Source: a virus
DNA: 42,331 bases
Reading direction: 5' to 3' (one strand)
IMG/VR virus record: IMGVR_UViG_3300030202_001922
Location: 2,702-45,032 of that record
Numbering within the stretch: position 1 is the first letter of the stretch; each line of letters opens with the position of its first letter. A program made the translations under genes and the position numbers. Shown here in pieces: positions 2,356 through 24,400 of this stretch. Under the pieces are notes generated by a model that was given only the letters and a program-made list of their open reading frames with translations, made no database searches and had not been told where the DNA came from.

Positions 2356-5073
2356 TTATTTTTTTATTATTCGTTTGTTTATTATTTTATTTTCATATGT
2401 TATTTGTAACATATACACCCCAGAACTTAATCTAGACATATCTAAGATGTTTGTATTTTCTTTTGATATAACTATATCCCCAATGTAATTTAATAAGTTT
2501 ATATCAACGTTTTTACTTATGTTTATTTTATCTTTAGTTGGATTTGGATACACAACTAAATAATCGTCTAAACTTTCTCTAGCTGGTATTGGACCAGTGT
2601 AAGTACTATCGCAATAATCATATGTTAACTGACATATATTATCCCACTCGTTATTACAACAATAATCATCTACTAAAATTACCCAAGCGTAGCAAGGATC
2701 ATTAAGCCAGTAAGGATTACCGGCACCAGATATACAACCAGCATCGTAAAGACAAGAAACGCTATCATGAACATTAGCGGAAACATTATAATTATAAGCC
2801 GATTGGTCCATACAACCTTCCACAATTGTAATACAGCTTTCGTTATCTGTGTTTGCAAGTGGATCATAGTTAAGCGCAGTGGAGTCCATACATCCATATA
2901 TATAAGCAATGCAACTAAAATCTTCCGTGTTTGCCAAAGCATCATAATTAAGCATAGAAGGATCCGTACAACCAAGTATAAAAGGAATACAGCTACTATT
3001 GTCAACATTTGCTAAAGGATTATAATTAAACATTGTACTATCAGTACAACCATAAATTGGTAATATACAGCTAAAATCATCTGTATTACAAGTATCACAA
3101 TAATTTAAAGCTATTGGATTTGTACATCCTAAAACTACCGGTAAACATGTACCGTTATCTGTGTTAGCCAAAGGATCATAGTTGTATGCTGATGTATCCA
3201 TACACCCATAAATATACTCTAAACAAGAACCATTATCTGTATTAGCTAATGGATCATAATTCCACATTGTAGCGTCTGTGCAGCCATAAAAGTAAGGTAT
3301 GCAAGAATCATCATCTGCGTTTGCGCTAGGTGAATAGTTCCACATAGTACTATCTGTACATCCATATATTACGCCTATACATGAACCATCATCAGTATTT
3401 GCTAGTGGATTATAATTAATAGCTATATCACTCATACAACCGTAAACCACAGCTATACAAGTATCAGGCGTATTTGCTTGTGCATTGTAATTAAAAGCTA
3501 AAGGCTGCATACAACCCATAATAACAGGTATACAACCACCATTATCAAGGTTAGCCAATGGATCATAATTAAAAGAAGCTGTATCAATACAACCCCACAC
3601 TGCTTGTGTTTGGCAATCACCATTGTTATAATCAGCTGTAAAACCTTGAGTATAATACTCTAAAAATTGTGGATCAGTACAACCGGGGCTATAGTAACAA
3701 CTACCATCAGTAGTATTTGCTGTATCATTATAATTATAAGCTAAAGCATCCATACAACCATAAACATAAGGATCACATATAGTAGGACAGTTTGGTACTG
3801 TTATATAGTTATCTGGGAATATTTGTATTTTATCGCTCCAAGGATTTGTACCTCCTGACATTATAGTAACTCCTTCTGGATTTATTAATTTAAATCCAAT
3901 TTGATCTAATGTAGCGTCTGAACTTGTTTGACTATAAGCTCTAATAGTAACCGGATGGTTTGATTTTAAATTTAAATATATATTTTCTACAAAAGAGTTT
4001 GTATTAGTATATGGACCAAATATATTACCCAATTGATTTACAACAACGTATGCTCCCAACCAACCATCACCTCCACCATCTGTTAATTGTAAAGTATAAT
4101 TACAACTATCTTCCATTAATGGTACGTTAGCTAAAACGTTAAAATCAAACATTGTTGTATCCATGCAACCTACAACTCTTGGCGTAACGCATAATGCTGA
4201 GTTCATTATATCAGCTGCTGGATTAAATTCTAAATAACCTGGATCAGGACAACCAACCACTGGTATCCAACTACAATCTTTCATTGCAAATGCATCTGAA
4301 GTATCTGAGTGTCCAAAGTTTAAATTATCTCCAGGCATTAAACTGTATATAGTATCACCACACTCATCTGTAACTAAAACGTTACCATCAACACCTCCAA
4401 AACAACTACCACATATACCATCACCATAAGAGTCGCGTATAATAAACCTTACTGTATCTTCAATAGAAACACATATTGTTTTTTCGTACAAATTACCTGT
4501 TCCAATACTACCGAAAAATGGTCTTTCAACATTATATAAAACACTGTCATCTTGGTTTATAATATCTAAAGATGTTTCTCCAGCATATTGATCTGGTGTA
4601 AACTCTATAGTTATCGATGTTTTTGTGGTATCTAAACAATCATCTTGTGGTGGTGGAATAGCGTAACAGTTAGCTGGTATGTTTGCTAAAGGATTATAAT
4701 TATCATAGTTAGGATTCATACAACCTGAAATACAAGCAAAATCATTTGCAAAAATAGTATCTGTAAAACTACCGTCTTGCATTTCTAAAAAAAACCAAAA
4801 GCCATCTGAACTAGCAAATGGATCTCCTTGACTATAGTTATTATAAAATTCGTAATTAGTATCTAGTTGATCATACCAACTCCAAGACCAAGTATTGTAA
4901 GGTGTGCCTTGGTGATAGTTTTGTACAACACATCCACTATCTAGTGATTCCCACTCTACAAAAGTTTTAGCGTAACCATATATACATGTATCTTTAGCTT
5001 CTAACGTTGGAACGCAGTTTTGGCTAAACGATAATATTGGTAACAATAATAATAGTAATAGTAATTTTTTCAT
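2356..5073 (-). CDS. Exported Cys-repeat protein with T9SS type A sorting domain
   Basis: I place the start at the ATG at 5073 (905 aa), not the in-frame ATG at 5139. The 5073 start lies one base after the upstream stop, has a GGAG nine bases away, and opens directly into the signal peptide MKKLLLLLLLLPILSFSQ, a typical Bacteroidota form. The body holds about sixteen repeats with pattern GC-(M/T)-D-x4-NY-(D/N)-PLAN-T-D-(D/N)-G-S-C, denser toward the C-terminus. Two Gly/Asp motifs, DSYGDG and GGGDGW, lie in the N-terminal half. The last about 70 residues have the type A T9SS tail marks: VVYPNPTKDKINI, LSSGVYMLQI, and a basic end KRIIKK. Such tails target proteins through the host type IX system to the cell surface or medium. 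The gene sits inside a run of phage genes with the same strand and A/T-rich style. Its role is unknown: surface adhesin, receptor shielding or competitor exclusion are candidates. Confidence 0.85.
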   Translation of the reverse strand: MKKLLLLLLLLPILSFSQNCVPTLEAKDTCIYGYAKTFVEWESLDSGCVVQNYHQGTPYNTWSWSWYDQLDTNYEFYNNYSQGDPFASSDGFWFFLEMQDGSFTDTIFANDFACISGCMNPNYDNYNPLANIPANCYAIPPPQDDCLDTTKTSITIEFTPDQYAGETSLDIINQDDSVLYNVERPFFGSIGTGNLYEKTICVSIEDTVRFIIRDSYGDGICGSCFGGVDGNVLVTDECGDTIYSLMPGDNLNFGHSDTSDAFAMKDCSWIPVVGCPDPGYLEFNPAADIMNSALCVTPRVVGCMDTTMFDFNVLANVPLMEDSCNYTLQLTDGGGDGWLGAYVVVNQLGNIFGPYTNTNSFVENIYLNLKSNHPVTIRAYSQTSSDATLDQIGFKLINPEGVTIMSGGTNPWSDKIQIFPDNYITVPNCPTICDPYVYGCMDALAYNYNDTANTTDGSCYYSPGCTDPQFLEYYTQGFTADYNNGDCQTQAVWGCIDTASFNYDPLANLDNGGCIPVIMGCMQPLAFNYNAQANTPDTCIAVVYGCMSDIAINYNPLANTDDGSCIGVIYGCTDSTMWNYSPSANADDDSCIPYFYGCTDATMWNYDPLANTDNGSCLEYIYGCMDTSAYNYDPLANTDNGTCLPVVLGCTNPIALNYCDTCNTDDFSCILPIYGCTDSTMFNYNPLANVDNSSCIPFILGCTDPSMLNYDALANTEDFSCIAYIYGCMDSTALNYDPLANTDNESCITIVEGCMDQSAYNYNVSANVHDSVSCLYDAGCISGAGNPYWLNDPCYAWVILVDDYCCNNEWDNICQLTYDYCDSTYTGPIPARESLDDYLVVYPNPTKDKINISKNVDINLLNYIGDIVISKENTNILDMSRLSSGVYMLQITYENKIINKRIIKK

Positions 5074-5074
5074 T

Positions 5075-5446
5075 TTATTTTTCTCCACATTTTTTACTAG
5101 GGTTGTTAACTTGCACCCAGTTTTCTTTAAACCAATCACGCAGTGTGGCGCCTTTTTTACGAGCGCCTTTTACATTAGTACTTGCTGGTCTTTTATATTT
5201 ACCTTCTTTACCAGACTTTTGTTTAGCGGCAACTAAACTTGCTTTTTCTTTTTTACTCATAGCGTCTAGCTTTGCTTTTGGTAAACAAGTTTTTCTAGTA
5301 CCGCCACCTTTTTGTTTTTTTACCGGCGATCTAGGCACACAGTTAGGCACAGTTCTACCATCTTTCTGCTTATAACCTTCTTGCTTGTGAGATTTCCAAC
5401 AAGGTAGCGGGCTGTTTTTAGTAAATTTAGACGCTATGTCGTACAT
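5075..5446 (-). CDS. Lys-rich, Cys-containing small basic protein
   Basis: A 123-aa strongly basic protein with four cysteines, at WKSHKQEGYK upstream (CWKSH), VPNCVPRSP, TRKTCLPKAK and the C-terminal KKCGEK. The block with KDGRTVPNCVP and a later MSKKEKASLVAAKQK segment resembles small basic proteins I remember from marine phages and large algal viruses, some carried as uncharacterised DUF families. I am not sure enough to name a family. The C-terminal half contains a single aromatic motif, LRDWFKENWVQVNN. It is one of five small basic genes lying between 5075 and 7152. Nucleic-acid or polyanion binding, perhaps with metal or disulphide stabilisation, is plausible from charge and cysteines, but no function is established. 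Confidence 0.6.
   Translation of the reverse strand: MYDIASKFTKNSPLPCWKSHKQEGYKQKDGRTVPNCVPRSPVKKQKGGGTRKTCLPKAKLDAMSKKEKASLVAAKQKSGKEGKYKRPASTNVKGARKKGATLRDWFKENWVQVNNPSKKCGEK
5083..5086 (-). promoter_or_regulatory. Shine-Dalgarno site deciding the start of the T9SS-tagged gene
   Basis: The reverse strand reads GGAGAAAAATAAAATG, with nine bases between GGAG and the ATG at 5073. Most genes in this window lack such a site, so it supports the internal start that leaves the signal peptide at the very N-terminus. Confidence 0.6.
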
Positions 5447-5447
5447 A

Positions 5448-5693
5448 CTATCCTTTTCTTATTTGAGCTAACATTGCTCTTTTTTCTCCTGGTGATAATT
5501 TTTTCATCATAGCAGACATTTTTTTACCCATAGCTTTAAGAGCAGAAGGCTTCATTGCTTTTGCAGGAGCTGCTTTAGTCATTCGTTTAGTTGGAGCTTT
5601 TTTACTCATTGCTTTTGTTGGAGCATTTTTAGTCATTCTTTTTGCTGGAGCTGCTTTCATTCTTTTTGCAGCTGATTTTTTTTCCATTGCCAT
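5448..5693 (-). CDS. Histone H1-like nonapeptide-repeat basic protein
   Basis: An 81-aa protein rich in Lys, Ala, Met and Pro, with essentially no acidic residues in its middle. Residues 15-50 are four copies of a nonapeptide, A-P-(A/T)-K-(R/A)-M-(T/S/K)-K-x, with prolines at 16, 25, 34 and 43, flanked by degenerate copies on both sides. The tail (KLSPGEKRAMLAQIRKG) looks like a short helix. Composition and repeat style resemble histone H1-like or Alp-type bacterial DNA-compacting proteins. Binding phage or host DNA is therefore a reasonable inference. It overlaps the PAP2 gene's stop by one base (TAATG), so the two are probably translationally coupled. A virion-packaged role cannot be excluded. 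Confidence 0.6.
   Translation of the reverse strand: MAMEKKSAAKRMKAAPAKRMTKNAPTKAMSKKAPTKRMTKAAPAKAMKPSALKAMGKKMSAMMKKLSPGEKRAMLAQIRKG
5544..5651 (-). repeat. 27-base tandem repeat encoding a nonapeptide, four copies
   Basis: Four in-frame 27-base units encode APAKRMTKN, APTKAMSKK, APTKRMTKA and APAKAMKPS. They are degenerate at the DNA level, so the repeat is maintained as protein and is not a fresh slippage product. Confidence 0.75.
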
Positions 5694-6214
5694 TATATTT
5701 TGTTTTTAATATGGTTATACATTTGTTTTCCTAATTTTTCACCCGCAAGATTATCTGATTTATAATGCGTGTGTGCTACTGATCTACTATGGATTATATC
5801 CCTAGCTAGTTTTTTTAATTTATCTTCTTTTTCTGGATACTTATCAGATAAAACTAAAGACAATAAAGTTGCTTGTGTTGCGTGACCAGACGGGTATGCT
5901 GGTGAGTTCATTGATTTTAACTTTATATCTTTAAGTTCTATACCTATTTTTTTTGCTAATACAGCTGGCCTTGGTCTATTAAAATGTTTTTTTAATTTAT
6001 TTATTATAACTAAAGATTTTGATATTAACTTACCTATTAAAGGATCTTTACCTACAATTTTAGTAAACAACTTTTCACCATCGTCCATTTCGTTAATAAA
6101 CTTTTCTCTTATAGGTATTTTTTTTAATTCTTTTATTTCGTTTTTAGTCGTAATAGAATTATCACCTGGTGGTTTGTTTTTTTTAAATTCTGATATGTCA
6201 AAGTCTTTAAACAT
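5693..6214 (-). CDS. PAP2-superfamily phosphatase, soluble form
   Basis: A 173-aa protein with all three signature motifs of the PAP2 / vanadium-dependent haloperoxidase superfamily: KX6RP at K75-P83 (KKHFNRPRP), PSGH at 108-111 (YPSGHATQ), and SRX5HX3D at 143-154 (SRSVAHTHYKSD). The family hydrolyses phosphate monoesters or lipid pyrophosphates using a phosphohistidine intermediate, here H150, with H111 as acid/base. No signal peptide or clear membrane helix is visible, unlike lipid phosphatases such as PgpB, so it resembles soluble class A acid phosphatases without their leader. It sits among small basic genes near exported and lysis genes. Substrate is unknown: undecaprenyl pyrophosphate, phospholipid or phosphorylated nucleotide pools are all possible. 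Confidence 0.85.
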   Translation of the reverse strand: MFKDFDISEFKKNKPPGDNSITTKNEIKELKKIPIREKFINEMDDGEKLFTKIVGKDPLIGKLISKSLVIINKLKKHFNRPRPAVLAKKIGIELKDIKLKSMNSPAYPSGHATQATLLSLVLSDKYPEKEDKLKKLARDIIHSRSVAHTHYKSDNLAGEKLGKQMYNHIKNKI

Positions 6215-6215
6215 T

Positions 6216-6503
6216 TTATTTATCTTTTTTACCTAAACGTTTTCTAACAATATTCATTACTGTTTTCATTTTACGAGCATAACTAGGGTTTTTACCTCTG
6301 TTAAATACATATTGTTGATTTAAACTACTTATTATTTTAGATAAATTACCTTTACGTGTTCTTATTAACCAACTAGCCAAAGCTGAAGGTGATAATGATT
6401 TAAACTTACCTTTAGCATCAGGAGCATCAGAGTCATGCCATGTAATAGACTTTGAAGTTTTTTTCTTTTTAAATGGTGAAGAAAAGCCTTTGTATATACC
6501 CAT
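6216..6503 (-). CDS. Small Lys-rich protein, unknown function
   Basis: A 95-aa basic protein. After a Lys-rich start (FSSPFKKKKTSK) it contains KFKSLSPSALASWLIRTRKG, then NLSKIISSLNQQYVFNRGKN and a basic helical tail ending RKRLGKKDK. The central pattern (ALASWLIRTRKGN, followed by QQ and FNRGKNPSYA) is one I recall from small proteins in marine viruses, with no known function. Its ATG overlaps the stop of the 77-aa gene (TAATG at 6501-6505). It belongs to the run of small basic genes and could be a nucleic-acid-binding or regulatory protein. No metal site or enzyme motif is evident. Confidence 0.55.
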   Translation of the reverse strand: MGIYKGFSSPFKKKKTSKSITWHDSDAPDAKGKFKSLSPSALASWLIRTRKGNLSKIISSLNQQYVFNRGKNPSYARKMKTVMNIVRKRLGKKDK

Positions 6504-6736
6504 TACTTTTTCTTTTTAAAATCACCACGTGTACATCTAACACCCCACCCAGAAGCATAAGCACTAGGCCATACTTTAAACTTTTTCTTTGCTTGAGCCT
6601 TACAACTAGCAGATATTTTAGCTAACGCTGGGCTAGTTTTTTTTAACATAGAGTCAATTCTGTCAGCTTGACTAGCGTGTGTTTTGCTAGCTTTTTTTAG
6701 CTCTCCAACTATTTTTTTTAATTTTTGTTTGCTCAT
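6503..6736 (-). CDS. Small basic protein with KVWPSAYASG motif
   Basis: A 77-aa protein with a helical Lys-rich N-terminal half and a compact C-terminal motif: ISASCKAQAKKKFKVWPSAY, then ASGWGVRCTRGDFKKKK. The CxAQAxxKFKVWPSAYASG signature is one I recognise from many short proteins or domains of marine phages and large DNA viruses, where it is uncharacterised. Two cysteines bracket the aromatic core and could bind metal or form a disulphide. The gene starts two bases after the 137-aa gene ends and couples to the next by TAATG. A DNA-binding or packaging accessory role is a guess from charge. Confidence 0.6.
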   Translation of the reverse strand: MSKQKLKKIVGELKKASKTHASQADRIDSMLKKTSPALAKISASCKAQAKKKFKVWPSAYASGWGVRCTRGDFKKKK

Positions 6737-6738
6737 AG

Positions 6739-7152
6739 TTAATATTTTCCTTTAACACCTTTTGGACTAGATTTAGTTGAACCACCTTTGCCAGCCCATA
6801 AAGTTTTACATGCCCAATATTGAGCTTTTAATTTAGTTTTCTTTTCTCCACATTTATGCCTAGCTCTAAAACTTTTTCTAGCGGCATCAGAATAATTATG
6901 GCCATATCCTCTTTCTCCAAAATGAACTATTCTTTCTTTACCACCTTCACAAGCTTTAACCATTTTCTTTTTATTAGGTTTAGTAGATGTTCTAGGTTTA
7001 TTACATGGCATTTTATCCTTGTCAACTCTTTTGAATAATGGTGACCCATCATTTCTACGTCTACCACAACTAGTAACAGGAAAAGGATTATCTCCTTGAA
7101 CGTATCCTTTAGTTTTTTTAAACATACTATTTTGCTTTTCAGTTCCTGGCAT
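6739..7152 (-). CDS. Lys/Cys-rich basic protein with GYGHNYSxAARKSF motif
   Basis: A 137-aa basic protein with five cysteines. The core, KMVKACEGGKERIVHFGERG followed by YGHNYSDAARKSFRARHKCG and QYWACKTLWAG, is a pattern I recall from short proteins of marine viruses where the same block recurs with paired cysteines. The Cys and His spacing (C...H...H...C...C) would allow zinc binding, though I cannot confirm it. It is first in transcription order of the small basic genes and directly follows the second holin-like gene, its ATG overlapping that gene's neighbourhood by one base. Function is unknown. Nucleic-acid interaction is the simplest guess. Confidence 0.6.
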   Translation of the reverse strand: MPGTEKQNSMFKKTKGYVQGDNPFPVTSCGRRRNDGSPLFKRVDKDKMPCNKPRTSTKPNKKKMVKACEGGKERIVHFGERGYGHNYSDAARKSFRARHKCGEKKTKLKAQYWACKTLWAGKGGSTKSSPKGVKGKY

Positions 7153-7373
7153 TATTTACTTTTTACTTTTTCAAATGAACTAATACCAAAACAACCTAGT
7201 GTTACCCACACAAATGAATTGTATATTACCTCGTTAATTACTAGTTCTCCATCTACGAATATAAAGCTAGTTACAAGATCTGCTATAGCAAACAATACCA
7301 TTACTACAAAAGATGCAAATCCAACTACATTTTTTTCGTTAATTTCATTTTTATCTTTAAATAAACTCCACAT
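7152..7373 (-). CDS. Two-TM holin-like membrane protein
   Basis: A 73-aa protein with two hydrophobic spans, about residues 16-40 (VVGFASFVVMVLFAIADLVT) and 45-65, and a short basic tail ending FEKVKSK. Size and topology match small phage holins, which form inner-membrane lesions that release endolysin. The C-terminal FGISSFEKVKSK closely resembles the FGGRSLEKVKK end of the 3TM-type holin at 40975-41361, suggesting related or partner proteins. It sits directly between an exported thioredoxin-like gene and the small basic genes. It could alternatively be an antiholin or an accessory membrane protein. Confidence 0.55.
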   Translation of the reverse strand: MWSLFKDKNEINEKNVVGFASFVVMVLFAIADLVTSFIFVDGELVINEVIYNSFVWVTLGCFGISSFEKVKSK

Positions 7374-7374
7374 A

Positions 7375-7710
7375 TTAAAAATCGCTCATTAATTGATTAT
7401 CTATTTCGTCTTGTACTTCTTGTTTTGTTGCTACCATTTTAAAACTTAAATCAGCTTGAAACCTAGCAACTTCTTCTCCATCTTTAAATATTATAATAGT
7501 AGGTACAACTGCTATTTTATGTTTTGTTTGTGCTTCAGTGTCTGTAGCTATATCAACTAAGCCTATAGCTTTACACTCTTCTAAATCCATTACCCAAGAA
7601 ACGCCGTTAGCTTCGTTCCACCCAGCATTAAAATGAGTTACGTTTATTTGAGCAAAAGCACTAGTAACCATTAGCACAAAAACAAATAGGGTGGCATTTA
7701 ATTTTTTCAT
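7375..7710 (-). CDS. Exported thioredoxin-fold protein lacking the CxxC site
   Basis: A 111-aa protein with a clean signal peptide (MKKLNATLFVFVLMVTSAFA, cleavage before Q21). The mature part shows the thioredoxin pattern: an N-terminal strand (INVTHFNAGW), VDIATDTEAQTKHKIAVVPT with the cis-proline at P70, then IIIFKDGEEVARF. The redox CxxC that should follow the first strand is absent: that region reads NAGWNEANG, and C46 is the only cysteine. The fold is probably kept for binding and not redox chemistry. Export places it in the periplasm. It overlaps the next upstream gene's stop by one base (TAATG). It may be a periplasmic chaperone or partner for other exported phage proteins, but this is inference. 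Confidence 0.7.
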   Translation of the reverse strand: MKKLNATLFVFVLMVTSAFAQINVTHFNAGWNEANGVSWVMDLEECKAIGLVDIATDTEAQTKHKIAVVPTIIIFKDGEEVARFQADLSFKMVATKQEVQDEIDNQLMSDF

Positions 7711-7991
7711 TATCTATTGTATAATTTGTCCTCTATTTTGTCAAGAGTTTTTTTAATTTCGTCAACATCTTTTTTGGTTTCCATAATAGTGTTACGTATC
7801 ATTTGGTCTTTCATGTTGAACTCCATACGAGTTACTTCGTCTGGTGGTATTATTGGTAGTTCTTTTGCCTCTGCAATGTCTGCTTGTAAAGCAAACCACA
7901 TACCTATTATAGTTGCCATAGCAAAACCTATGGCTATCATTGTCTTCACACTAATAGTGAAACCCGTATCTTCATTTAATTCTTTTGCCAT
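7710..7991 (-). CDS. Single-TM coiled-coil protein, inner-spanin candidate
   Basis: A 93-aa protein with a short N-terminal cytoplasmic stretch, one membrane span at about residues 18-37 (MIAIGFAMATIIGMWFALQA), a linker and a heptad-patterned helix up to the C-terminus (KKDVDEIKKTLDKIEDKL). An N-in anchor with a periplasmic coiled coil is the usual layout of inner-membrane spanins, which link inner and outer membranes in the last step of lysis. Its position next to a holin-like gene and an outer-membrane-like protein fits. No outer spanin lipoprotein with a lipobox is seen beside it, so the call rests on topology and context only. Confidence 0.5.
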   Translation of the reverse strand: MAKELNEDTGFTISVKTMIAIGFAMATIIGMWFALQADIAEAKELPIIPPDEVTRMEFNMKDQMIRNTIMETKKDVDEIKKTLDKIEDKLYNR

Positions 7992-7992
7992 T

Positions 7993-9072
7993 TTAAAATA
8001 TAGTGTAATTTAATCCTAACTTAAAATCGTACCACTCTCTATTCCAGTACTTATTATATTTTCCTTCTATAAAATATCCTAACTGCTTGTTCATTTTTAT
8101 TCCATATATAAGCCCACCAGAATAATCATACCACTGACCATCAACATAGTTGTGATAACTAAATTCACTACCATCGTTATAATGATAAGGCATAATGCTA
8201 GCCCAAGCGTGTGTCCATGTTTTTTTAGAATATTTATAATAATCAAAACCAAAAACAATAGAGTGCTGTATTGTTTTCTTTAATTCATTTCTTTTCTTTT
8301 CAGTATAATCTGATAATACTTGTGGTATAACAACTGCTTCCCAAACTTCTGCGCTAGTTGCAACTAGTTCTCCATTAGGATCAAAATATTCATTGCTATA
8401 CACATTTACAGTATAACCTTCTTGTAAAGCTAAATAAGTGTAATGAAGATTACCATTATCAAGCATCCATTCGTCTAAAGCATTGTAACCGTATGGCTCT
8501 GCAAGTCTATGTGTTAAACCAACGTTCCAAGATAAGTTCTTACCTTTACGATGTCTATATCTTTCTGACGCTTCAAAGTATTTAATATCTGCAAAACCAT
8601 CTTCTAAGTACTCTAGTTTTAAAGCAAAAAAGTTTATACATAACTCATCTGCACAACCGTCGTCAGAGCTAAACCTAACAAAGTGATGTTGATCCATGTA
8701 GTCTACACCTTCTTGTCTCTTATAATCTATTTCAAATAAGTATTCAACTCCCTTAACCTTACCGACAGTGGCCGCGTCACTGTAATTAGATTCCGTTCCA
8801 TCATAAAACGTTTGAGCTTTATTTTCATATCCAAATCTTGCTATCTTACGTAAACCTATGGTAAAATTATAATCATAAGGAGTTGAAATAGTTTGTGTAG
8901 ACAAGCCATTATCTACAGAAAATACATCAACATCAGAAAGCGACGTCCCACCGTTAACAGCGGTATAAAACGTAGAATACTTTAATAAGCTCTTAACGTT
9001 AATATTTCCAATTGTTTGTGCTACTGTTATATTACATATAAGTAGTAGCAATATTATTAGTCTTTTCACCAT
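7993..9072 (-). CDS. Exported protein with outer-membrane-like C-terminus
   Basis: A 359-aa protein with a signal peptide, MVKRLIILLLLICNITVAQ. The mature region is rich in Tyr, Trp and Phe, has alternating strand patterns (for example LFEIDYKRQ, VRFSSDD, FFALKLEYL, IVFGFDYYKY, YFIEGKYNKYW) and ends YDFKLGLNYTIF. A terminal aromatic residue preceded by alternating hydrophobics is the beta-signal recognised by the BAM complex, so insertion in the host outer membrane as a beta barrel is plausible. One Cys pair (DDGCADELCI) may form a disulphide. It follows the 2505-aa protein gene after a 35-base A/T-rich gap. Functions such as receptor blocking or envelope remodelling are hypothetical. I do not recognise the family. 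Confidence 0.65.
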   Translation of the reverse strand: MVKRLIILLLLICNITVAQTIGNINVKSLLKYSTFYTAVNGGTSLSDVDVFSVDNGLSTQTISTPYDYNFTIGLRKIARFGYENKAQTFYDGTESNYSDAATVGKVKGVEYLFEIDYKRQEGVDYMDQHHFVRFSSDDGCADELCINFFALKLEYLEDGFADIKYFEASERYRHRKGKNLSWNVGLTHRLAEPYGYNALDEWMLDNGNLHYTYLALQEGYTVNVYSNEYFDPNGELVATSAEVWEAVVIPQVLSDYTEKKRNELKKTIQHSIVFGFDYYKYSKKTWTHAWASIMPYHYNDGSEFSYHNYVDGQWYDYSGGLIYGIKMNKQLGYFIEGKYNKYWNREWYDFKLGLNYTIF

Positions 9073-9107: not shown

Positions 9108-12100
9108 TTATCTTTTAAAAGTTTCTCTCTTAAAACTTTCTCTTTCAAAAACCCCTTTTTTCTTTTTTCTTTTCTTTGTATTTGCTTTATTTATTTTAAC
9201 TTTTTCTTTTGCCTCTATTATAGCTTCAGTGTCACCTAAACCTAAACTCCAAGTAGTATAACCGCTAAAAAACATTACTCTTTGGAAATTAGTATAATCT
9301 TTATCAAGCGCATTACGCATGTTTATACTTTTTTGATATAATCTGTTAGCTGGAAAATTAGTTAAAGCTTGAGTATAATTAGTTACAGCTGACCACATTG
9401 GGTTATCAGCTTCAAAAGTTTCCATTTCACCTATAACGTTTTCGTTATAATTAAGAGTTTTTTCAGCGTTAACCAACTGCCTTACTTTAATACCTACAAC
9501 AGGTGAAAAGTTTAAAAGCTCCATTGGAACTGCGCTTTCATCTTTGTTGTATCCTTTTTCTCTTTGTTCTTTAAATTTAATTAATGCATTTTTTAAAGTA
9601 GAAACAACAGCACCATATATACCAGCACCTCTCAATATAGAGTCTATACTACCATTTATAACTCTTTCTCTTTTCTTTAATATTTGATCCTCATCTTCAT
9701 CATCACCAAACATAACCGCAAACAAAGCAGTTTGTAAGCTATAGAATATAACGTTTTGTATTGCCCCGTAGTATAGTATTTTAGATAAATTACCTAAGTT
9801 ACTTTGTGCTTTAGTTGTATATGGCGGTGATATTCTACCTTTTCCAATATCTAAAGCAGCTTTTTTAATTATTCTATTATACTGAGATGTAATATTTTGA
9901 AAGTTTAATACTAACTTACCTATCCAACTAGCTTGTTGCTGTGATGTCATGTCAGGTCTTGATGACTGCTGAGTTGATTGAGTTAAGTCTTGAAAGTCTG
10001 TAAAAGCTTTAGCTTCAGCTTCTTTTTTACTTAAACCATCTTTAATATACTTATTTATTCTGTTTCTATAAAATGTAGCTCCACCCGTAGCAATTGCAAT
10101 ATTATCACCAATTTGTGTAGGTAAAAATCCTAATTGTAAAAGTTTACTTATAACTACTTTAGTAGGATCTTTTGATCCTTTAACTGCTTGAGCAAGGTCA
10201 GCACCGTTAATATCTGTACCAATACCACCACGTCTTTGTTTTAACATGTCAGAATTAAATATAAACGCAAAATCTTTCCAGTATTGAGGTTGATTTGCAA
10301 AAGCCTTAGCTGCTGCAAACATATTGTTATCAGCAAAGTTTATATAGTTAACAATAGACATTTGCTGTAATATAGCAGATCTAACGTTAAAAAACATCAC
10401 TGTACCAACTGAACCGTTTAAATAATTCATAAACTTATTCATAGTAGCATGTTGTCCTTTTGGTCTGTTTACACCAGTACTAATTCTATGTAATATATCT
10501 TCTAACGCGCTTCTAAAATCAGCACCATAAGCAGCTTCAATTTTATTTAAATTTTCAGGTGAAAATATTATATCAGCGTTTTCATTAAACTCTGTAAAAA
10601 ACTCTGCTCTACCAACTCTACCAGTAGCATCTATTAAATCTGTTTTTATATTACCACCTTCCCAACCTTGACCTGGGTCTGTGTATTTATCTTGTTTAGA
10701 AATAATATTAACTGTATCAGCATATTGCCTAAGATCTTTGTCGTTCATTACAAGTTCAACAAGATTTTTTTGATCAGTAGGCGATAATCCTGGTATACTA
10801 TAACCATGTTTATTCCATAAGTAAACTCTTATAGCATCTTCAAAAATAAAATCACCATCTGGTGTTTTCTTTGTAAGTTTCTTTTTTACATCTGCAAGCT
10901 GTTCGTTTAATGCTTTGTAATCATTTGCTATAGCTTGTTTAGCAGTATCTATTTCTCTATAAGCTCTATTTAAAGGTCTAACTAAAGCTTTTTCAAAAAA
11001 GTCTCTATGTTGATCACCTTTTCTGCCTTTACCCATAAAGTTGTACAATAAACCTACAAAATCCTCATGTGATGGTGGTATAAAAAATCTAAATTTACCT
11101 TTACTAGCACCACGCTTTCTAGCCTTAATATCTGAAAAACGTTTTATAGCGTCAATACCAGTTACTTCTTCTAGTATGTTATTAAAGTCAGTATTCATAC
11201 TTTTGCTAAACTTAACTTTAGCTTGTTGAACTTTACGCTTAACATCAAACTGTTCTAGCATATTATCTACTGCTTGTACGTTTTGTAAAGCATCATCAGC
11301 AAAATAAAAGTCATTATAGCCATCAGCAACTTTATCAGCAACCCATAACGCTTTAGCTTCAGAAGTGCTATTACCTAGGCCAGTTATATTTTTTAAAGGT
11401 ATATTCAAGCCATTAGCTTTTAAAAAGTCAAATATAGCTTTAGCCGCTTGAGGTGGTCTAGCTGTTAATACAAACATATTTTCAGGACCAAACTTGCCTT
11501 GTAGCTTTATTGCTTTTTTAAACAATGGTGCTAACTTACCTTTTACAACTTTATTAAAGTCCGAAAAATCAAATACATAGCCTTGATCTTGTAAATCTTC
11601 ATATGTACTAGCAAACTCTTCAGCGTTTAAAGTTCCGGTTTTACCATCTGGTGTAGTATATTTAACTAAAGACTCAGTTGTAGCTAAAGTGTCATCAAAA
11701 TCTAAAATACTAATACCTTTAGGTGGTTTTGACGCCATTGTTCTAACATTGTTTACTGCTTTGCTAAACTGTTGTTGTGGTTTTAAATTAGATTTTATAA
11801 TCGGTGATTTACCAGACATAGTAACACCATACTCGTCAGCAAATGTTTTGCCATTTTTAATCACTCTAAGATTATTAGGATTTATAGCGTTAACATCTGT
11901 ATTAAAATATCTGTCAAACCAATTGTCAAGAAAAATATCCCAACCAACTCCCATGCCGTTTTTATACTTTATTAAAACACCATTTTCATCTATGTATTCA
12001 GCTGCGTTTAAAGTTGTATCATCTTTTAAAGATAATGCTATTAACTTATAGTTTTTCTTAATAGCTTTTAAAGTTTCATTAAAATCTTTTGGGTTATTCA

Positions 12101-15100
12101 GTAAAACGTCCAATAATAAATCTCTTACAGTAGCGGTTTGCACGGCATGCTCATATCTTATTTCACCTGTAGCTGTAACGTCACCACCAATATATTCAGC
12201 TCCACCCCTAAGTGGATGTGAAGTATCGTTTCCAGCTGCAGATAAATATAAATTAATAGCAGAGTGAAGTTCTTTGTCTTTTGGATTATCTTCTATAGCT
12301 TTTTTAATCATATCTACCATATCATTAAAATTAGCTTGACCAACTTCATTATATCTTTTAGCTTGAGCTTTAGTTATTGCTTTTATGTTTTTACCTAAAG
12401 CAGCATCAGGTCTAAGATAATCTCTATCTTGAGATTTACCTATAGTCAATAAACCTAAGTCTTCAAATAAAGTACTTGATCTGGCATAATCTTTTACAGC
12501 ACTGTTAGTAAGTGTACTACGTAAATCAACAGCTCTAATTAAACCAGGTTTACCATATGTAGAAAGTAAAATTATTTTATCTGTAAATATATCAAAATTT
12601 TCAAAACCGTTTTTAGGATCGTTTATTTTTAAATCAGGTAAATCTTCTTTAACACCTTTACTAAACATGATATTAGAAATACCATCTTTTATGTTTTGTA
12701 TTGTCTGTTTGCTATCACTCAAAAGCTGTAAGTTTTCTCTCACAGCTTGATTAGTCATTATTTTGCCTGTTAAATTAGCTAATGCTAAAACTCTAGCCGA
12801 TGTGTTTCTATCGGTACGATCTGGTTTACCATCTATTATGCCAAATGTTTCTAAAAACTCTTTTTTATTAATTTTGTTTTTAACCTGTATGGGTAAGCCT
12901 GACGTGCTACCTGTTTTAGCCATTTTAGCTCTATCAGTTTTAGTGTAAAAAGCTTTTAGTAAACTGTTAGGCACACCTGTTGCAGTGCCACTTTGTGTAG
13001 ATCCTTCAGGTAACATACTAATTAATAAATCAGCATTTTTATTAATAAACATTTGAGCAGCTTGCAACTCTTTTTTAGTTATATTAGCTAAAGTTTTTAA
13101 TTTTTTAGGGCTTATACCAAACATTTCACCAGTAATACCAGGTACTAAGTTTTTTAATTTTTTAAATGTTAATTCTTTAACATTTATTTTTGGTAATTGT
13201 TTTTTAATAGATTCATTAACTTTACTTTTAACGTTTAGTCTGTCAGCTAAAAATATTTTTTTAGGTTTTGGTTTTCTTGTAACTGTAGGTTCAACTATTT
13301 CTTCTGCTGCGATATCAACTCTTTCTGTAATATCTTCTGTAAACTCTTCGCCTAAAATTTCACGAGAAGCTTCTATCATTCTTTCAGGTAGCAAGTTGTT
13401 AATAAAACCAGCTAATGGCGCTACTTTTTTACCGTCTTTTTGTTGTTTTTTAACATAAGCTGGGTAAGCCTTTATAAGACCCATTATACTTCTTTGCTTA
13501 CCTGTTTTTTCGTTTATTAAACCTGTTTCTATCTCGTCTGTTAATAGTTGTCTATCAAAACCAGGGGCTTCGCTACGTTTATCTACTAATTTTCCTACTA
13601 TAGGTTTAAACTCTTTTAATATATCAAATATACCAGCTTCACCTTGTTCTTCGTATATACGTTGCACATTGTCAGAAGCTTCTTTAGACATTTGAACTGT
13701 AGCCTCTGGTTTAACTTTACCTTTAACTAATTCACCTTTAACACCTTCTTTTGCTAAATTTAATATAGCTTTATTTATTTTACCTTCTTTAATACTTTTG
13801 CTATAATCTTTTACAAAATTATAAACATCTCTTCCGGTATCAAATGTAATTTCTTTACCTAAATAATTTTGACTAAATCTTCTTACAATATCACCAATTT
13901 TAGTAAAAAAGTTTTCTTCAAACTTTAAACTACCATCTATAATAGATTCAGACATTATAGTTATTGTTTCTTCACCAAAATTATCATCTCTAATAAAAGT
14001 TCCATCTTCCTGAAACTTTCCATAAGCAGACAATCTTTGACCTAAAATACTAGTATCACCACCTAGTTTAGATGTGTGTTCAACCAAAGCATCGCCTAAA
14101 GCGTCTTGTATATTTTTATTGTTACCAATAGTTTTAAATAATACAGCATGCATAAACTCATGTGCTGCTGTACCAACCATTGGTTTGTCTTTGTTAAGTA
14201 TTATTTGAAAGCTACCATCTGTAGATTGTCTAATAAAACCAAATTCTTTTGCTGCGGCTTTAGAATTAAAACCTTCTTCTTTAATATTTGATATTTCTTC
14301 AGAAGTCATTTCAGTAACTTTACCTTCTAATCCAGCTTCTTTTATTTGTTCTTTTACAGTTTCTGTAACTTGTTCAGCAGCTCTTGCTGTAGCCGTTGAT
14401 TGTACTTGGTTTATTTCTTCACTTAATTTTTTATCTTGATTATTTAAACTTCTAATACCGTAACCAAATTCTCTGTTTGTTATTTCACCGTTTTCTAATT
14501 TTGCTCTTAAAGATTCTGCTTTTTCTTTAATACCATCTTTTTCATTTAAAACATTTATTAACGATGTTTTTTCATCTTCAGTAAGAACTTCGCTTAATTT
14601 TCTTTTTTCAATTATATAGCTTTTAAGATCTTGCTCAGCTGCCTTTATCTCTAAATCAATAGCATCTTTTATATCTTTATCTTTTGTACTATATTTTGCG
14701 TTGTTTAAATCAGCTAAATTATTTATTTTATCATTAACTTCTTTTAAACTAGCATTATCGTTTCTTAAAGCTCTATTAACTAAACCACCAGCACCAGCAA
14801 TAGTAGTAGAACCAATAAATCCACTGAAAAACATTTCTAAACCTTTATCACTAGCCATATCATTAAAAGCCAATACAGATGCTTCCTCTACGGTTTTACC
14901 TTGACCTAAACTCGTGTTCATTGTTTCTAAACCAAGTTGTCCAACTTCAGTAGCGCCTTCACCACTACCAACCCATAATAATTTTGTAAATCTAGCGGCT
15001 GTACCTGGTTTTGATGCTATATACCTAGTAACACCTCTAAGTCCAACTCGTTCTAATCCATAAGCAAGACCACCAAGAGCCATTGGTAATGCAACTTCAG

Positions 15101-16625
15101 TTTCATTATTAGATACTAACTTGTTAAGAGCATCTTCATCATCACCATATTTTAATTTTGCTTTAGCAACGTTATAATCGTTGTACATTGGAGCGGCTAT
15201 TTGAGGAAACAAACTTACACCAGCTGTAACGTAAGCTGGACCTAAAGTTTCTATCATACTAGTAACTGAATTCATTACACCACCAACTACATCAGATACA
15301 TCACCAGTTTTAACACCAGTAACCATACCTTTACCATCATATTTATATAGTAATTTTGTAGCTTCTATTTCTTTATATTTATTAGCTAGCCAAATATCTG
15401 TAGATTCTCCAACTTCTTCTCTAGTATCTTTATAAATAGGTTTAACATTTTTATTTTTATTTAACTCTTTCCATTTATCTGGATTTTTATCAAACAAAAT
15501 ATCTTCACCAGTATTTGGATCAATAAAAATAATACTACCTTTATCTCCTCCTAATAAAAAATCAGTAGCATCTTCTCCAGCAGTTTTTCTTAAAAAATCT
15601 ATACCCATAGCCTGTGTTTGGGTAAGGGTGTTTGCCAACCTTATTGGCATATCATCTTTAATATTTATTGCATTTTGTTTTATTTGAGCCCTTTCTTTTG
15701 GATCTTTTAAACCTTCGTATAAAGCCGCTGCTGATACCGCTAATTTATATTTTAAACCACCAAAAGGTAAATCAGTGTTCCAAACACTACTTAAAGCTAT
15801 TGACTTGGGATCCAAAGAACCATCGTCCAACTTGGATGCCGTATCTTCGACATCCACAGTGGCATCCGGCTGTGGTGTTACTCCCTTTACTTCTGGGGTT
15901 GAAAAAAACTGATTTGTAAAATCATCAGATGATTTAGTGTAATCTCCTTTTTGGTTTAAGTGATTATATAACTTTTCTCTAGATTCTTGATTTGAAAATT
16001 GTTTTATAAAATCATCGTATGATTTAGTATATTCACCATTATCAGTTAAATGTTTATGTAATTTTACAGATGACTCGTTAGTAGTAGGCACTGGTTGTAC
16101 TTCTGGTTGACTAGTTAATAAAGAATCAGCTATACTAAAGTTTCTATTAGTTATACCTTTATAACCAGCATCACCTTCTTCTAATACTTTTCCACCTGCT
16201 TTTCTTAAATTAGGATTTTCTTTTATTATTTGTTGTGCTTTTTCAATATCACCAGAGTTAATAGCTTTTATAATACCACTTTTTCTAACATTACCCATAC
16301 CACTTCTATAAAGTAAATTTGTAAGCGCATCTCTTTGTTCTTGTGAAACATCTTTATTAGTTAAAACAGAGTTAGCTTGATCAGTATATATTTTTTTTAT
16401 TTTAGGCATTAAATCTTTTGCTTGTTGCCTAGACATAGTTTTACCTGTTGAAACACCACTTTTATCCCAATACTCACTCCAGTGTGGTCTACCATCTTTT
16501 CCATCTAAAGAGTATTTAGTATAACCAAAACCAATTGTTGTGGTACCGCCAACGTCTGAATATGGAAGACCACCTTCTTTAAAACCTTCTTGTTTTATTA
16601 ATTCTTCTTCTAATACTTCGCTCAT
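9108..16625 (-). CDS. Giant polyvalent ejection protein: lysozyme, zincin and HAD domains
   Basis: A 2505-aa multidomain protein, last of three putative internal virion proteins. Residues 1-165 form a T4-type lysozyme (GH24) with the catalytic set E13, D24, T30 in EGFKEGG...YSDVGGTTTIGFGY. Residues 188-210 and 218-240 are two copies of an HL-x3-G-(E/D)-YTKS-x-DDF motif. Hydrophobic stretches occur near 445-480, 510-530 and 600-618. A zincin motif AAHEFMHAVLF gives H822, E823 and H826. A HAD-type phosphatase domain follows at about 1637-1785: DFDDTLA (D1642, D1644), VLTARP (T1721), a candidate motif-III Lys (K1758 or K1765) and FADDA (D1777, D1778). The rest is largely helical. The tail is very basic with a small FERESFKRETFKR repeat. 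Position and N-terminal muralytic domain parallel T7 gp16, and domain variety fits phage polyvalent proteins, injected to breach the wall and act early in the host. Confidence 0.85.
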   Translation of the reverse strand: MSEVLEEELIKQEGFKEGGLPYSDVGGTTTIGFGYTKYSLDGKDGRPHWSEYWDKSGVSTGKTMSRQQAKDLMPKIKKIYTDQANSVLTNKDVSQEQRDALTNLLYRSGMGNVRKSGIIKAINSGDIEKAQQIIKENPNLRKAGGKVLEEGDAGYKGITNRNFSIADSLLTSQPEVQPVPTTNESSVKLHKHLTDNGEYTKSYDDFIKQFSNQESREKLYNHLNQKGDYTKSSDDFTNQFFSTPEVKGVTPQPDATVDVEDTASKLDDGSLDPKSIALSSVWNTDLPFGGLKYKLAVSAAALYEGLKDPKERAQIKQNAINIKDDMPIRLANTLTQTQAMGIDFLRKTAGEDATDFLLGGDKGSIIFIDPNTGEDILFDKNPDKWKELNKNKNVKPIYKDTREEVGESTDIWLANKYKEIEATKLLYKYDGKGMVTGVKTGDVSDVVGGVMNSVTSMIETLGPAYVTAGVSLFPQIAAPMYNDYNVAKAKLKYGDDEDALNKLVSNNETEVALPMALGGLAYGLERVGLRGVTRYIASKPGTAARFTKLLWVGSGEGATEVGQLGLETMNTSLGQGKTVEEASVLAFNDMASDKGLEMFFSGFIGSTTIAGAGGLVNRALRNDNASLKEVNDKINNLADLNNAKYSTKDKDIKDAIDLEIKAAEQDLKSYIIEKRKLSEVLTEDEKTSLINVLNEKDGIKEKAESLRAKLENGEITNREFGYGIRSLNNQDKKLSEEINQVQSTATARAAEQVTETVKEQIKEAGLEGKVTEMTSEEISNIKEEGFNSKAAAKEFGFIRQSTDGSFQIILNKDKPMVGTAAHEFMHAVLFKTIGNNKNIQDALGDALVEHTSKLGGDTSILGQRLSAYGKFQEDGTFIRDDNFGEETITIMSESIIDGSLKFEENFFTKIGDIVRRFSQNYLGKEITFDTGRDVYNFVKDYSKSIKEGKINKAILNLAKEGVKGELVKGKVKPEATVQMSKEASDNVQRIYEEQGEAGIFDILKEFKPIVGKLVDKRSEAPGFDRQLLTDEIETGLINEKTGKQRSIMGLIKAYPAYVKKQQKDGKKVAPLAGFINNLLPERMIEASREILGEEFTEDITERVDIAAEEIVEPTVTRKPKPKKIFLADRLNVKSKVNESIKKQLPKINVKELTFKKLKNLVPGITGEMFGISPKKLKTLANITKKELQAAQMFINKNADLLISMLPEGSTQSGTATGVPNSLLKAFYTKTDRAKMAKTGSTSGLPIQVKNKINKKEFLETFGIIDGKPDRTDRNTSARVLALANLTGKIMTNQAVRENLQLLSDSKQTIQNIKDGISNIMFSKGVKEDLPDLKINDPKNGFENFDIFTDKIILLSTYGKPGLIRAVDLRSTLTNSAVKDYARSSTLFEDLGLLTIGKSQDRDYLRPDAALGKNIKAITKAQAKRYNEVGQANFNDMVDMIKKAIEDNPKDKELHSAINLYLSAAGNDTSHPLRGGAEYIGGDVTATGEIRYEHAVQTATVRDLLLDVLLNNPKDFNETLKAIKKNYKLIALSLKDDTTLNAAEYIDENGVLIKYKNGMGVGWDIFLDNWFDRYFNTDVNAINPNNLRVIKNGKTFADEYGVTMSGKSPIIKSNLKPQQQFSKAVNNVRTMASKPPKGISILDFDDTLATTESLVKYTTPDGKTGTLNAEEFASTYEDLQDQGYVFDFSDFNKVVKGKLAPLFKKAIKLQGKFGPENMFVLTARPPQAAKAIFDFLKANGLNIPLKNITGLGNSTSEAKALWVADKVADGYNDFYFADDALQNVQAVDNMLEQFDVKRKVQQAKVKFSKSMNTDFNNILEEVTGIDAIKRFSDIKARKRGASKGKFRFFIPPSHEDFVGLLYNFMGKGRKGDQHRDFFEKALVRPLNRAYREIDTAKQAIANDYKALNEQLADVKKKLTKKTPDGDFIFEDAIRVYLWNKHGYSIPGLSPTDQKNLVELVMNDKDLRQYADTVNIISKQDKYTDPGQGWEGGNIKTDLIDATGRVGRAEFFTEFNENADIIFSPENLNKIEAAYGADFRSALEDILHRISTGVNRPKGQHATMNKFMNYLNGSVGTVMFFNVRSAILQQMSIVNYINFADNNMFAAAKAFANQPQYWKDFAFIFNSDMLKQRRGGIGTDINGADLAQAVKGSKDPTKVVISKLLQLGFLPTQIGDNIAIATGGATFYRNRINKYIKDGLSKKEAEAKAFTDFQDLTQSTQQSSRPDMTSQQQASWIGKLVLNFQNITSQYNRIIKKAALDIGKGRISPPYTTKAQSNLGNLSKILYYGAIQNVIFYSLQTALFAVMFGDDEDEDQILKKRERVINGSIDSILRGAGIYGAVVSTLKNALIKFKEQREKGYNKDESAVPMELLNFSPVVGIKVRQLVNAEKTLNYNENVIGEMETFEADNPMWSAVTNYTQALTNFPANRLYQKSINMRNALDKDYTNFQRVMFFSGYTTWSLGLGDTEAIIEAKEKVKINKANTKKRKKKKGVFERESFKRETFKR
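15906..16064 (-). repeat. Two 23-residue repeats after the lysozyme domain
   Basis: Residues 188-210 and 218-240 of the polyvalent protein share the pattern KL-(H/Y)-x-HL-x3-G-(E/D)-YTKS-x-DDF-x-x-QF, spaced by 30 residues. The two copies are clearly homologous at protein level. They may bind peptidoglycan or a virion partner, but I know no function. Confidence 0.65.
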
Positions 16626-21414: not shown

Positions 21415-24400
21415 TTATTCTCTTGATGGTCCTCCTAATGGTCCTGATGGTCCTGATGAAGAAATTGGTGATGGTCTACTAGCTACAGATTCACTAGACG
21501 TATCTCTAGATGTAGTTGTACTAGATGAAGTTGAATCAACACCGCTTGATGTTTCAGTTGTTGCTCTTGTATCTACAGCTACACTAACACCTAAGTTTTG
21601 AAATCTTTGTACTGCTTGTGAAACCGCTTGTTGAATCGCATTATTTGAAATTGATATACCAGCTTGTTGAGCAACTTCTACTTGTGCTAATACTAAGTTT
21701 TGAATATTAGATTGTGTAATATTTGTTACTACTTGTGTTGGAGTAGTTGATATTGCCGCATTACCACCAGCATCAGCACTAACTAATCCCGTTTCAAAAC
21801 TTTGGCTTGTACTTGCTTGAATTGAGCTTTGTACAGTGTTAGAAACTGAGGTACCACTAAAATCTAGTGATCCAACACTACCACCATATCCTACTGCGCC
21901 ACCACTTCCAGCAGCACCACCTGCAGCACCACCTAACCCACCTGTTAAAACACCAGTGCCAGTACTAGTACCAACACCAACACTAATACCAGTACCAGTA
22001 GTAGTAGCTGGACCACTTGATATTACCGCTCCTCCAGTAGTTGAAGATCCCGGTGCTGGTCCTACTGGACCACTAGAAACGGTACCACCTGCTATTACAG
22101 CGCCACCAGCACTTACAGATCCTGGTGCTGGACCTACTGGGCCTGTTGGAGTTATTGGACTACCTGATACTGGACCTCCAGAACTAGCAGCTATTCCACT
22201 GTCTCCATTAAAACCTATACCTTGAAAAGTAAAGTCACCTGTATCAGCTCCAATTAAATTTAAATCAATAGTTCTATTTATATTGTTAAACCATTGACCT
22301 TCTTTTTCTATAAACTCATTAATATGACCAACTTCTTTATCTGTTATAATAGACTCAACAAACCAACCATCTTTACTTGATAAATTATAAAACTCTTGAT
22401 CGTTATAAATAGTATCTGGTTGATCATAATAAGTATGAATCTCACTAGTAAATTGATTTATCTTTGATTGACTACCTTCGTAATTTAAAGTGTTAAACGC
22501 TTTTATAGCAGAAGGATTATTGTTTAAAATTACATCAACAGTTGACGGTGTAAACTCATTGTAAAAAGTATTTCTATCTTGATCTTCAGAGTTATGAAGA
22601 TATAAGTTTCCATTTTTAAACGTGTAATAATCGTTAGCCATGCTAACTCCTTTTTCCATACCTACAAACGATTTAAAACTAGTCCATCCTTTTACTTTTT
22701 CACTAAATGATAATAAGTTTGTATCAAACTCAACACTAAAATTCCACACACCGCTTGACGCAAACCATGATTGAAAATCAAGTGTTGTTAATGAAATATT
22801 GTATTCATCATTTCTATCATCATAACTACCTAAAATTCTAAATAACGTAGTATCTTTAAGGTGATCTCTAAACCAATCTTTCATACCATGCTCAGATATC
22901 GGTGTTAAACCATCTCTAGATAATCGCATAACAGTTCCTCTAACTCTATCACTAAAATAAGCTCTATATGACTTTGATGCAAATGATTCAGGATTTTTTG
23001 ATATACCATACTCACCTATAAAAGGAACTGCTTGTCCTAAAACATTTTCAGTAGCTGTTAATTGTGCATTTCCGTCAGCGTTAAATACAGCATCTTTATT
23101 AGCTAATATTTTTAATACTTTATCTTCACAAAGTGTAACTAAATCTGTATCTCTAGCAAATAATTTTTGTATACTACCAAATCTTGGATTTAAATCTTTA
23201 GTAATTTTTTCTGCTTGAATAAATTGGTTTAAGTTATTTGTACCACTAACTGAATTATAAATTCCAGAATATATTAAACCATTTTGTCTTCGTTCTTCTG
23301 CATATTCATCTTCTAAAGTAGTAGAAACTTTAACTCCATTAGAAATAAATGGTAAATTAAAATTATCTCTAATTCTGTTTGATTCTACTCCATTACCAAA
23401 CGAATAACAATTATACCAAGGTAACCAAAATGAATCATTAAAAAAGTTTTCTTGGAATCTAGCTCCGTCTGCACTAGTGTTTAAATATTCTGTATTTACT
23501 ATTGTATCATCAGGTCTAACAATACTAAGTATTTGTCCTGATACAACAGTTGAAGGAATTGGAGGGGTAAGTTGTACTCTATCTCCATTATATCCTGTAA
23601 CAACGTTAATTAAAATAGCTCCACTAGCTACATCAACAGTAATAGTAAAAGAACCAAGAGGAAACGCAGCTTCAATAGTTTCGTCTGTAATTCTTATTGG
23701 TATTGTAGGACTAGCTTCATAATATATATCTAAATCTTTTGTATCTTTTGGCTCTGTTTCCCAAATAGCAGGATTTTCTGATAATATTTCTTCTCCTTCA
23801 AGCGGCTCAAGAAACTCTAAAGTATACCCAACAGCTCCAACTTTACCAATTTTAGACCAACCCTGTGTAAGAGTATGAGTACCCATGGTATTTATATTAA
23901 ACTCTGAGTTATGGCTATAACCATTCATACCAACCTGCACAAATTCAATATTTGTATTAACATCAGGTCTTTTAGCTGGTTGTGCTAGTTTATGACTATT
24001 AACATCTAAAGGTCTTCTCCATCCACCCAAATACAAAGCGTAATACGTATCACCACTAGCATTTTCTAAAGGCTCTATATACCTTACAACAAAGTAAGTT
24101 TCAACGCTAGAATTAATATGGGTTTTTAAAACGTTAAAAGATCCACCTAAAGTATATCTATATAATGCCATACCAGTGTGTATTGAAGCTTCTGCATCAC
24201 CTCCACCAGTATTTGTTCCAGATAAATCTGTTACATATACTATTAAATCATCATGCCAACTTGTTCCAAAAGCTGTTGTTGGTCCAGTTGAATTACCTGC
24301 TTTAGAGCAAGTTATTAGTTTTATTGTTAATCCACCACTAGGTCTATTATCTAAAGGGTTCCAATCTAGTTGAGGTGTAATATTACCCATTTGCCAACCT

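Follow-up and report, generated by a model that had tools for sequence, protein, structure and literature searches.

Why would a phage carry a gene whose product bears the C-terminal address of its host's secretion machinery, and where would that product act? The question is raised by a gene in a 42,331-nt window of the IMG/VR record IMGVR_UViG_3300030202_001922 (the whole record has 49,179 bases); the window is here the whole stretch of DNA that was analysed. An initial annotation had described the product as carrying an export signal (a signal peptide), repeats bounded by Cys, and a T9SS tail of type A, and had proposed that the phage uses the T9SS of its host to bring it to the outside of the infected cell.

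The known T9SS tails are of types A, B and C (PMC10202324), and those of type B (the gliding-motility type) and type C (the ChiA type) comprise about 100-235 aa (PMC10202324, PMC12618676). Phage-encoded proteins with type A domains have been described for Cryophage, where a hijack of the host system was proposed and the finding was called a unique occurrence (Bellas 2020, PMC7468147); the cargoes, an endoglucanase, a GH39 protein and a PA14 protein, are encoded by variable genes of one phage (PMC7468147). Phage-encoded T9SS cargo is thus already known, and the present case is a second and far wider one. It has in common with Cryophage the type A tail on a phage-encoded protein, and differs in that one conserved repeat protein recurs with the same neighbours in hundreds of viral contigs, and with a second type of tail.

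Results

A phage gene for a repeat protein

Judged by its sequence, the source record is a tailed phage. Its TerL has a PHROG match at 2.7e-167 and its portal one at 1.1e-151, and these two matches confirm the phage setting that had been assigned to the repeat gene. The nearest terminase belongs to a metagenomic phage (63%), Elemovirus follows with 45% identity, and further TerL kin are found in Flavobacterium, Cellulophaga, Tenacibaculum and Maribacter phages. That the gene with the T9SS tail sits inside a phage genome is seen from the viral record, from TerL and portal, and from the context of its relatives. The gene and the parts of its product are the following.

2356..5073, minus strand: Cys-repeat protein with a T9SS type A tail, 905 aa, predicted to be exported (ORF and profile matches)
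5083..5086, minus strand: Shine-Dalgarno-like GGAG, nine bases 5' of the ATG and within the end of the upstream gene (read from the sequence)
5020..5073, minus strand: Sec signal peptide, residues 1-18, MKKLLLLLLLLPILSFSQ (sequence; kept in relatives)
4294..4626, minus strand: beta domain, residues 150-260, a confident fold that contains DSYGDG (AlphaFold2 model, pLDDT about 80-88)
2752..3759, minus strand: principal stretch of Cys-bounded repeats, each of about 26 aa, residues 439-774 (sequence; model confidence low)
2611..2742, minus strand: invariant Cys module, residues 778-821, WLNDPCYAWV...DYCC..W..IC..TYDYC (tails are exchanged past its end)
2359..2553, minus strand: T9SS type A C-terminal sorting domain, residues 841-905 (PF18962, TIGR04183, Foldseek 8glk_D)

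The open reading frame runs on the minus strand from an ATG at 5073 to a stop at 2356-2358, in agreement with the coordinates 2356-5073 of the initial annotation, and the one-base gaps on its two sides (5074 and 2355), as well as a Shine-Dalgarno-like site of its own (GGAG at 5086-5083), are real. The gene is located downstream of the virion genes. Four small proteins further downstream (1932-2354, 1466-1900, 1028-1435 and 513-1025) had been taken for beta-rich structural proteins, a description that found no backing: a Pfam search with all four gave no convincing match, and the one of them that was searched in PHROGs had no match there.

From the N- to the C-terminus, the protein consists of the signal peptide, a beta region, a pair of 'GDG' domains (residues 214-219 for DSYGDG, near 333-338 for GGGDGW), the Cys repeats, the Cys module and the tail. 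The Cys-bounded repeats, most of them 26 aa long, number 16, with one more that is degenerate; about sixteen had been counted before. The total of Cys is 52, and the number of repeats differs between relatives. In the AlphaFold2 model the tail and the early beta domains alone are trustworthy, the repeats being of low confidence. Likenesses of the whole model to SiiE and to fibronectin domains in Foldseek were dismissed as multi-domain noise.

The type A tail

A comparison of the protein's end with HMMs of the T9SS type A domain, which the initial annotation had proposed as a check, was passed: residues 841-905, at the extreme C-terminus, match PF18962 with E=8e-11 and 42.5 bits (cut-off 27) and TIGR04183 with E=1.1e-9 and 38.1 bits (cut-off 23), both in excess of the curated cut-offs. 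The tail is predicted by AlphaFold2 to be an Ig-like beta sandwich (pLDDT about 82), and in Foldseek this model matches 8glk_D, the tail of the NucA substrate in the T9SS complex (TM 0.72 by target, 30% identity), as well as the tail of mirolase. The protein therefore resembles known T9SS type A cargo (TIGR04183/PF18962) in its signal peptide, in an Ig-like sorting domain of about 65-75 aa and in a Lys-rich end motif. It differs from such cargo in that it is phage-encoded, stands in a recurrent phage module, and has a tail that in its relatives is interchangeable with a shorter one.

Two tails at one junction

In a first scan, 24 viral relatives of the repeat protein were found, and an alignment scan extended this number to at least 583 viral stretches, reaching down to about 31-40% identity. 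Among the best 80 of these at least 583, 45 carry a type A tail and 33 a compact tail of about 40 aa, with the pattern D-x-LGR...YIY-x-DG...KK and the form KxLIxxTDLLGRPTKxxKNKLLxYIYSDGTVERKLIK; of the remaining two, one is cut by the end of its contig and one is interrupted (L174). Both kinds of tail are found at the same junction, past the Cys module, and the median length beyond this module is 84 aa for type A and 52 aa for the compact form. A signal peptide is present in all 78 distinct complete viral relatives, as called by one simple custom predictor that was used for viral and host proteins alike and whose absolute rates are rough. In the phage records of the first set, a tail above threshold occurs at most once per record, and always on the repeat gene.

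On the tree of a neighbouring barrel gene, described below, the kind of tail switches 12 times, with at least 7 of the switches forced by supported branches, and on a tree of the repeat protein body, with the tail left out, it also switches 12 times, with at least 10 forced. To exemplify, the barrel of the window is 92% identical to that of another viral relative (L019), the repeat protein of which ends in a compact tail. Despite this repeated switching, loss of the tail is almost never seen among the viral relatives. By these sequence comparisons, the conserved trait is the possession of a C-terminal tail and not the kind of tail possessed.

When a tail is kept and its kind keeps changing, the pattern is the one expected from selection for export, since a tail without use, left over from an earlier function, would decay. 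Selection for export of the phage repeat protein by the T9SS is accordingly the best reading of the sequence data. The core of the initial annotation, that a phage gene encodes a protein with an address for the host T9SS, is in this way supported by the HMM matches, by the predicted fold and by evolution, in that signal peptide and tail are kept in viral relatives across repeated changes of tail kind. What it had missed are the module in which the gene recurs and the second tail, which is present in about 40% of the close relatives.

The compact tail in Flavobacteriales genomes

The compact tail matches none of the known T9SS tail models in NCBIfam and Pfam. NCBIfam had no family for 12 compact tails, Pfam returned a single and spurious match to LtuB, and a full-text search of PMC gave no paper with the motif, motifs being rarely printed as text. 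The tail is nevertheless common in bacterial genomes of one kind. It occurs in 55 of 148 evenly drawn Flavobacteriales genomes, nearly all of them of at most 2 Mb, with up to 46 copies per genome, and in 10 of 15 metagenome-assembled genomes (MAGs) holding relatives there are 9-52 compact tails each; in a class-wide draw of 149 genomes it was found in just 4 besides the centre genome.

In host proteins the compact tail stands at the C-terminus or a few residues from it. Signal peptides, called by the same rough predictor, are present in 48 of 56 complete host proteins with the tail, compared with 55 of 174 neighbour proteins (p=8e-13), and the cargo includes cyclophilin, a CAP domain, plastocyanin/AhpC-TSA, DUF4886-PKD, leucine-rich repeats and an esterase-like enzyme. 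The tail swap seen in the phages recurs among these host proteins: an esterase-like protein (L082) has the compact tail where homologues with 40-52% identity (L084, L086, L087 and L097) have type A, and the protein encoded at L195:9781-11880, with a compact tail, is 66% identical over the 236 residues before the tail to one with type A (L041). In one genome (G033) there are about 50 compact tails in 1.9 Mb, and a cluster of genes for secreted proteins there (G033:C2:5000-30000; loci L185 and L186) has at least seven compact-tail genes within about 20 kb.

In the likely host group of the phages, type A tails are numerous, and SprA and PorU are present. All of 20 compact-tail-rich genomes also contain SprA and 25-64 type A tails, and PorU is present in such genomes as well, in a few fragmented MAGs incomplete or with a score under the cut-off. 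SprA was found in 54 of 55 genomes with the compact tail and in 70 of 93 without it, a difference that is confounded by endosymbiont-sized genomes and by phylogeny, since most Flavobacteriales have SprA anyway; in one MAG (G134) the compact tail is present and SprA was not found.

Relation between the compact tail and type A

With small alignments, HHalign detected no likeness between the two kinds of tail. When 71 compact and 82 type A sequences were compared, a weak likeness appeared over the whole compact tail (P=1.6e-4, probability 50%), and with sets of host sequences only the value was P=1.9e-4. None of 100 column-shuffled profiles scored as high, and a reversed profile scored far lower. 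One high-scoring control made from a slice of the protein body was set aside, since this slice has a few upstream residues in common with the compact-tail rows. In the alignment, the compact tail corresponds to the latter half of type A, starting with the strand that precedes 'LGR' and ending at the final residue; this is the region of motifs D and E. These two motifs alone can drive secretion, and the last 22 residues of HBP35, comprising D and E, are enough to secrete GFP (PMC10202324). Because the aligned part holds the motifs that are sufficient in HBP35, the compact tail may plausibly be read as a reduced type A signal which keeps mainly the D/E region.

The compact tail is, from this evidence, probably an unrecognised T9SS signal. 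A fuller proposal, which we regard as likely although with less assurance than T9SS export of the window protein itself, is that it constitutes a new class of T9SS signal of about 40 aa, made of the last type A strands, which small-genome Flavobacteriales put on as many as about 50 proteins in a genome, and which their phages have captured again and again as a means of placing the repeat protein on or outside infected cells. The alternative is that the tail is some other C-terminal domain, for instance an anchor or the label of substrates of a different route, so that the phages would use two routes. Such a domain would explain why no T9SS model matches the tail and why its profile similarity to type A is weak; it is nonetheless rather unlikely, given that phage and host homologues alike show the compact tail in the place of type A, at one and the same junction, that it stands at the exact C-terminus of proteins with signal peptides, and that SprA accompanies it in nearly every genome.

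A recurrent module of exported and membrane proteins

In nearly all of the best 80 of the at least 583 viral relatives, genes for a barrel, a 93-aa and a 111-aa protein are found no further than 5 kb from the repeat gene. The corresponding neighbours in the window, and two further genes near the repeat gene, are the following.

7993..9072, minus strand: outer-membrane beta-barrel, 359 aa, with signal peptide; recurrent neighbour (model, about 12 strands predicted)
7710..7991, minus strand: single-helix membrane protein, 93 aa, its tail coiled-coil-like; recurrent neighbour (helix read from the sequence)
7375..7710, minus strand: thioredoxin-like protein, 111 aa, in which CXXC is lost and a signal peptide present; neighbour in nearly all relatives
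7152..7373, minus strand: two-helix membrane protein, 73 aa, holin-like in appearance, a putative holin; neighbour in some relatives
52-507: M15 peptidase

Some orthologues of the barrel have a lipobox-like leader (LIAC or LASC) and others an ordinary signal peptide. The barrel is phage-specific: it was found in one of the 148 Flavobacteriales genomes (G038), and there on a contig that carries the phage module. In Foldseek, the PDB matches of the barrel model are generic barrels, and a role as a PorV- or SprF-like partner was rejected for now, as a chain of the T9SS complex appeared only at rank 24 with TM 0.28. The thioredoxin-like protein has kept its cis-Pro motif and signal peptide, and CXXC is missing in all relatives listed; it is therefore probably not a redox enzyme.

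Searches of the INPHARED records of cultured phages with the repeat protein, the barrel, the thioredoxin-like gene and the compact-tail consensus gave no match. The phage of the window is thereby set apart from Elemovirus and the Cellulophaga podophages, to which its TerL is related: none of the cultured-phage records searched has the repeat protein, the barrel or the thioredoxin-like gene.

The contig in G038 (G038:C32; loci L184, L205 and L206) is 43 kb long and has the phage module, in which the repeat protein is of 994 aa and ends in type A. G038 itself is a Flavobacteriales MAG of 2 Mb in which compact tails, SprA and PorU are present; it is a possible lead to the phage host, being the sole host link and one that depends on binning, which can err. 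The module was also met on a contig binned as Candidatus Nitrosopelagicus, an archaeon (L038); because it bears this phage module, that contig is most likely mis-binned.

Discussion

The data suggest the following course of events. The repeat protein, destined for the outside of the infected cell, would be produced late, leave the cytoplasm by the Sec route with the help of its signal peptide, and fold with formation of disulfides in the periplasm. The type A domain would then hand it to the host T9SS, with SprA as translocon and PorV as shuttle, and PorU could clip the tail, leaving the protein attached to surface LPS or released. In related phages the compact tail would do the job of type A, with the likely hosts putting the same tail on many proteins of their own. 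On the strength of sequence and structure model, export of the repeat protein by the host T9SS can be held with considerable confidence.

The purpose of such export is less certain. Shielding of receptors, altered adhesion and carriage on debris had been put forward in the initial annotation as candidate purposes. What we tentatively favour is an altered surface of the infected cell, in which the repeat protein, with the phage-coded outer-membrane barrel, would serve as a mask or decoy against further phage adsorption; it is favoured because all four conserved genes look like genes for envelope proteins. The main alternative, somewhat less likely and itself compatible with T9SS export, is action at lysis or after release, the repeat protein being a soluble decoy or a factor bound to debris, and the barrel and the small membrane proteins a lysis module. 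The M15 peptidase and the nearby two-helix and one-helix coiled-coil membrane proteins fit such a role, although plain lysis would need no T9SS tail.

Two further explanations are to be considered. The repeat protein could be a virion fibre or decoration, an appendage of capsid or tail with host-binding repeats, its type A domain being left from a captured host adhesin. Repeat-rich adhesins are common among phage fibres, the gene lies downstream of the virion genes, and its small neighbours could be virion proteins. This is nevertheless improbable, as the signal peptide, kept in 78 of 78 complete relatives, would remove the protein from the cytoplasm, where virions are assembled, and a leftover tail should decay instead of being kept in nearly all relatives with its kind replaced at least 7-10 times. 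That the gene is a passenger, a host secreted protein picked up without phage function, is suggested by the large proteins with the same repeats and either tail that Flavobacteriales genomes encode, and is still less credible in view of the spread of divergent relatives over hundreds of viral contigs and of the recurrent module with its phage-specific barrel.

The preferred reading, export of the repeat protein by the host T9SS, suggests that a large group of uncultivated Flavobacteriales phages has maintained such export, which would not be the curiosity of one genome. Should the compact tail prove to be a T9SS signal, it would represent a new signal class: like the tails of types B and C it would be an alternative C-terminal T9SS signal in Bacteroidota, and unlike them it has about 40 aa and matches no NCBIfam or Pfam model. 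The natural swap of tails offers a handle on the open T9SS question of which part of a tail is the signal. Furthermore, since the host proteins with compact tails escape current models, many secreted proteins would be missed, and the secretomes of small-genome Flavobacteriales are likely to be under-counted.

Other genes of the window

Between the repeat gene and the module genes there is a row of small and very Lys-rich proteins (5075-7152; 81, 123, 77, 95 and 137 aa), partly kept in relatives, one of which is weakly like DUF5754. In the same region, 5693-6214 encodes a phosphatase of the PAP2 family (1.8e-9), with no evident signal peptide and kept in many relatives. Next to the barrel gene, 9108-16625 encodes a protein of 2505 aa with an N-terminal phage lysozyme domain (1.1e-13) and, as seen by eye, an HEFMH metalloprotease-like and HAD-like motifs; it is a giant protein of several domains that is perhaps injected. 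A protein of 2322 aa (21415-28383) bears the C-terminal domain of the Crassvirus muzzle (PF25729, 5.7e-8), hinting that the phage of the window and crAss-like phages may have a tail design in common.
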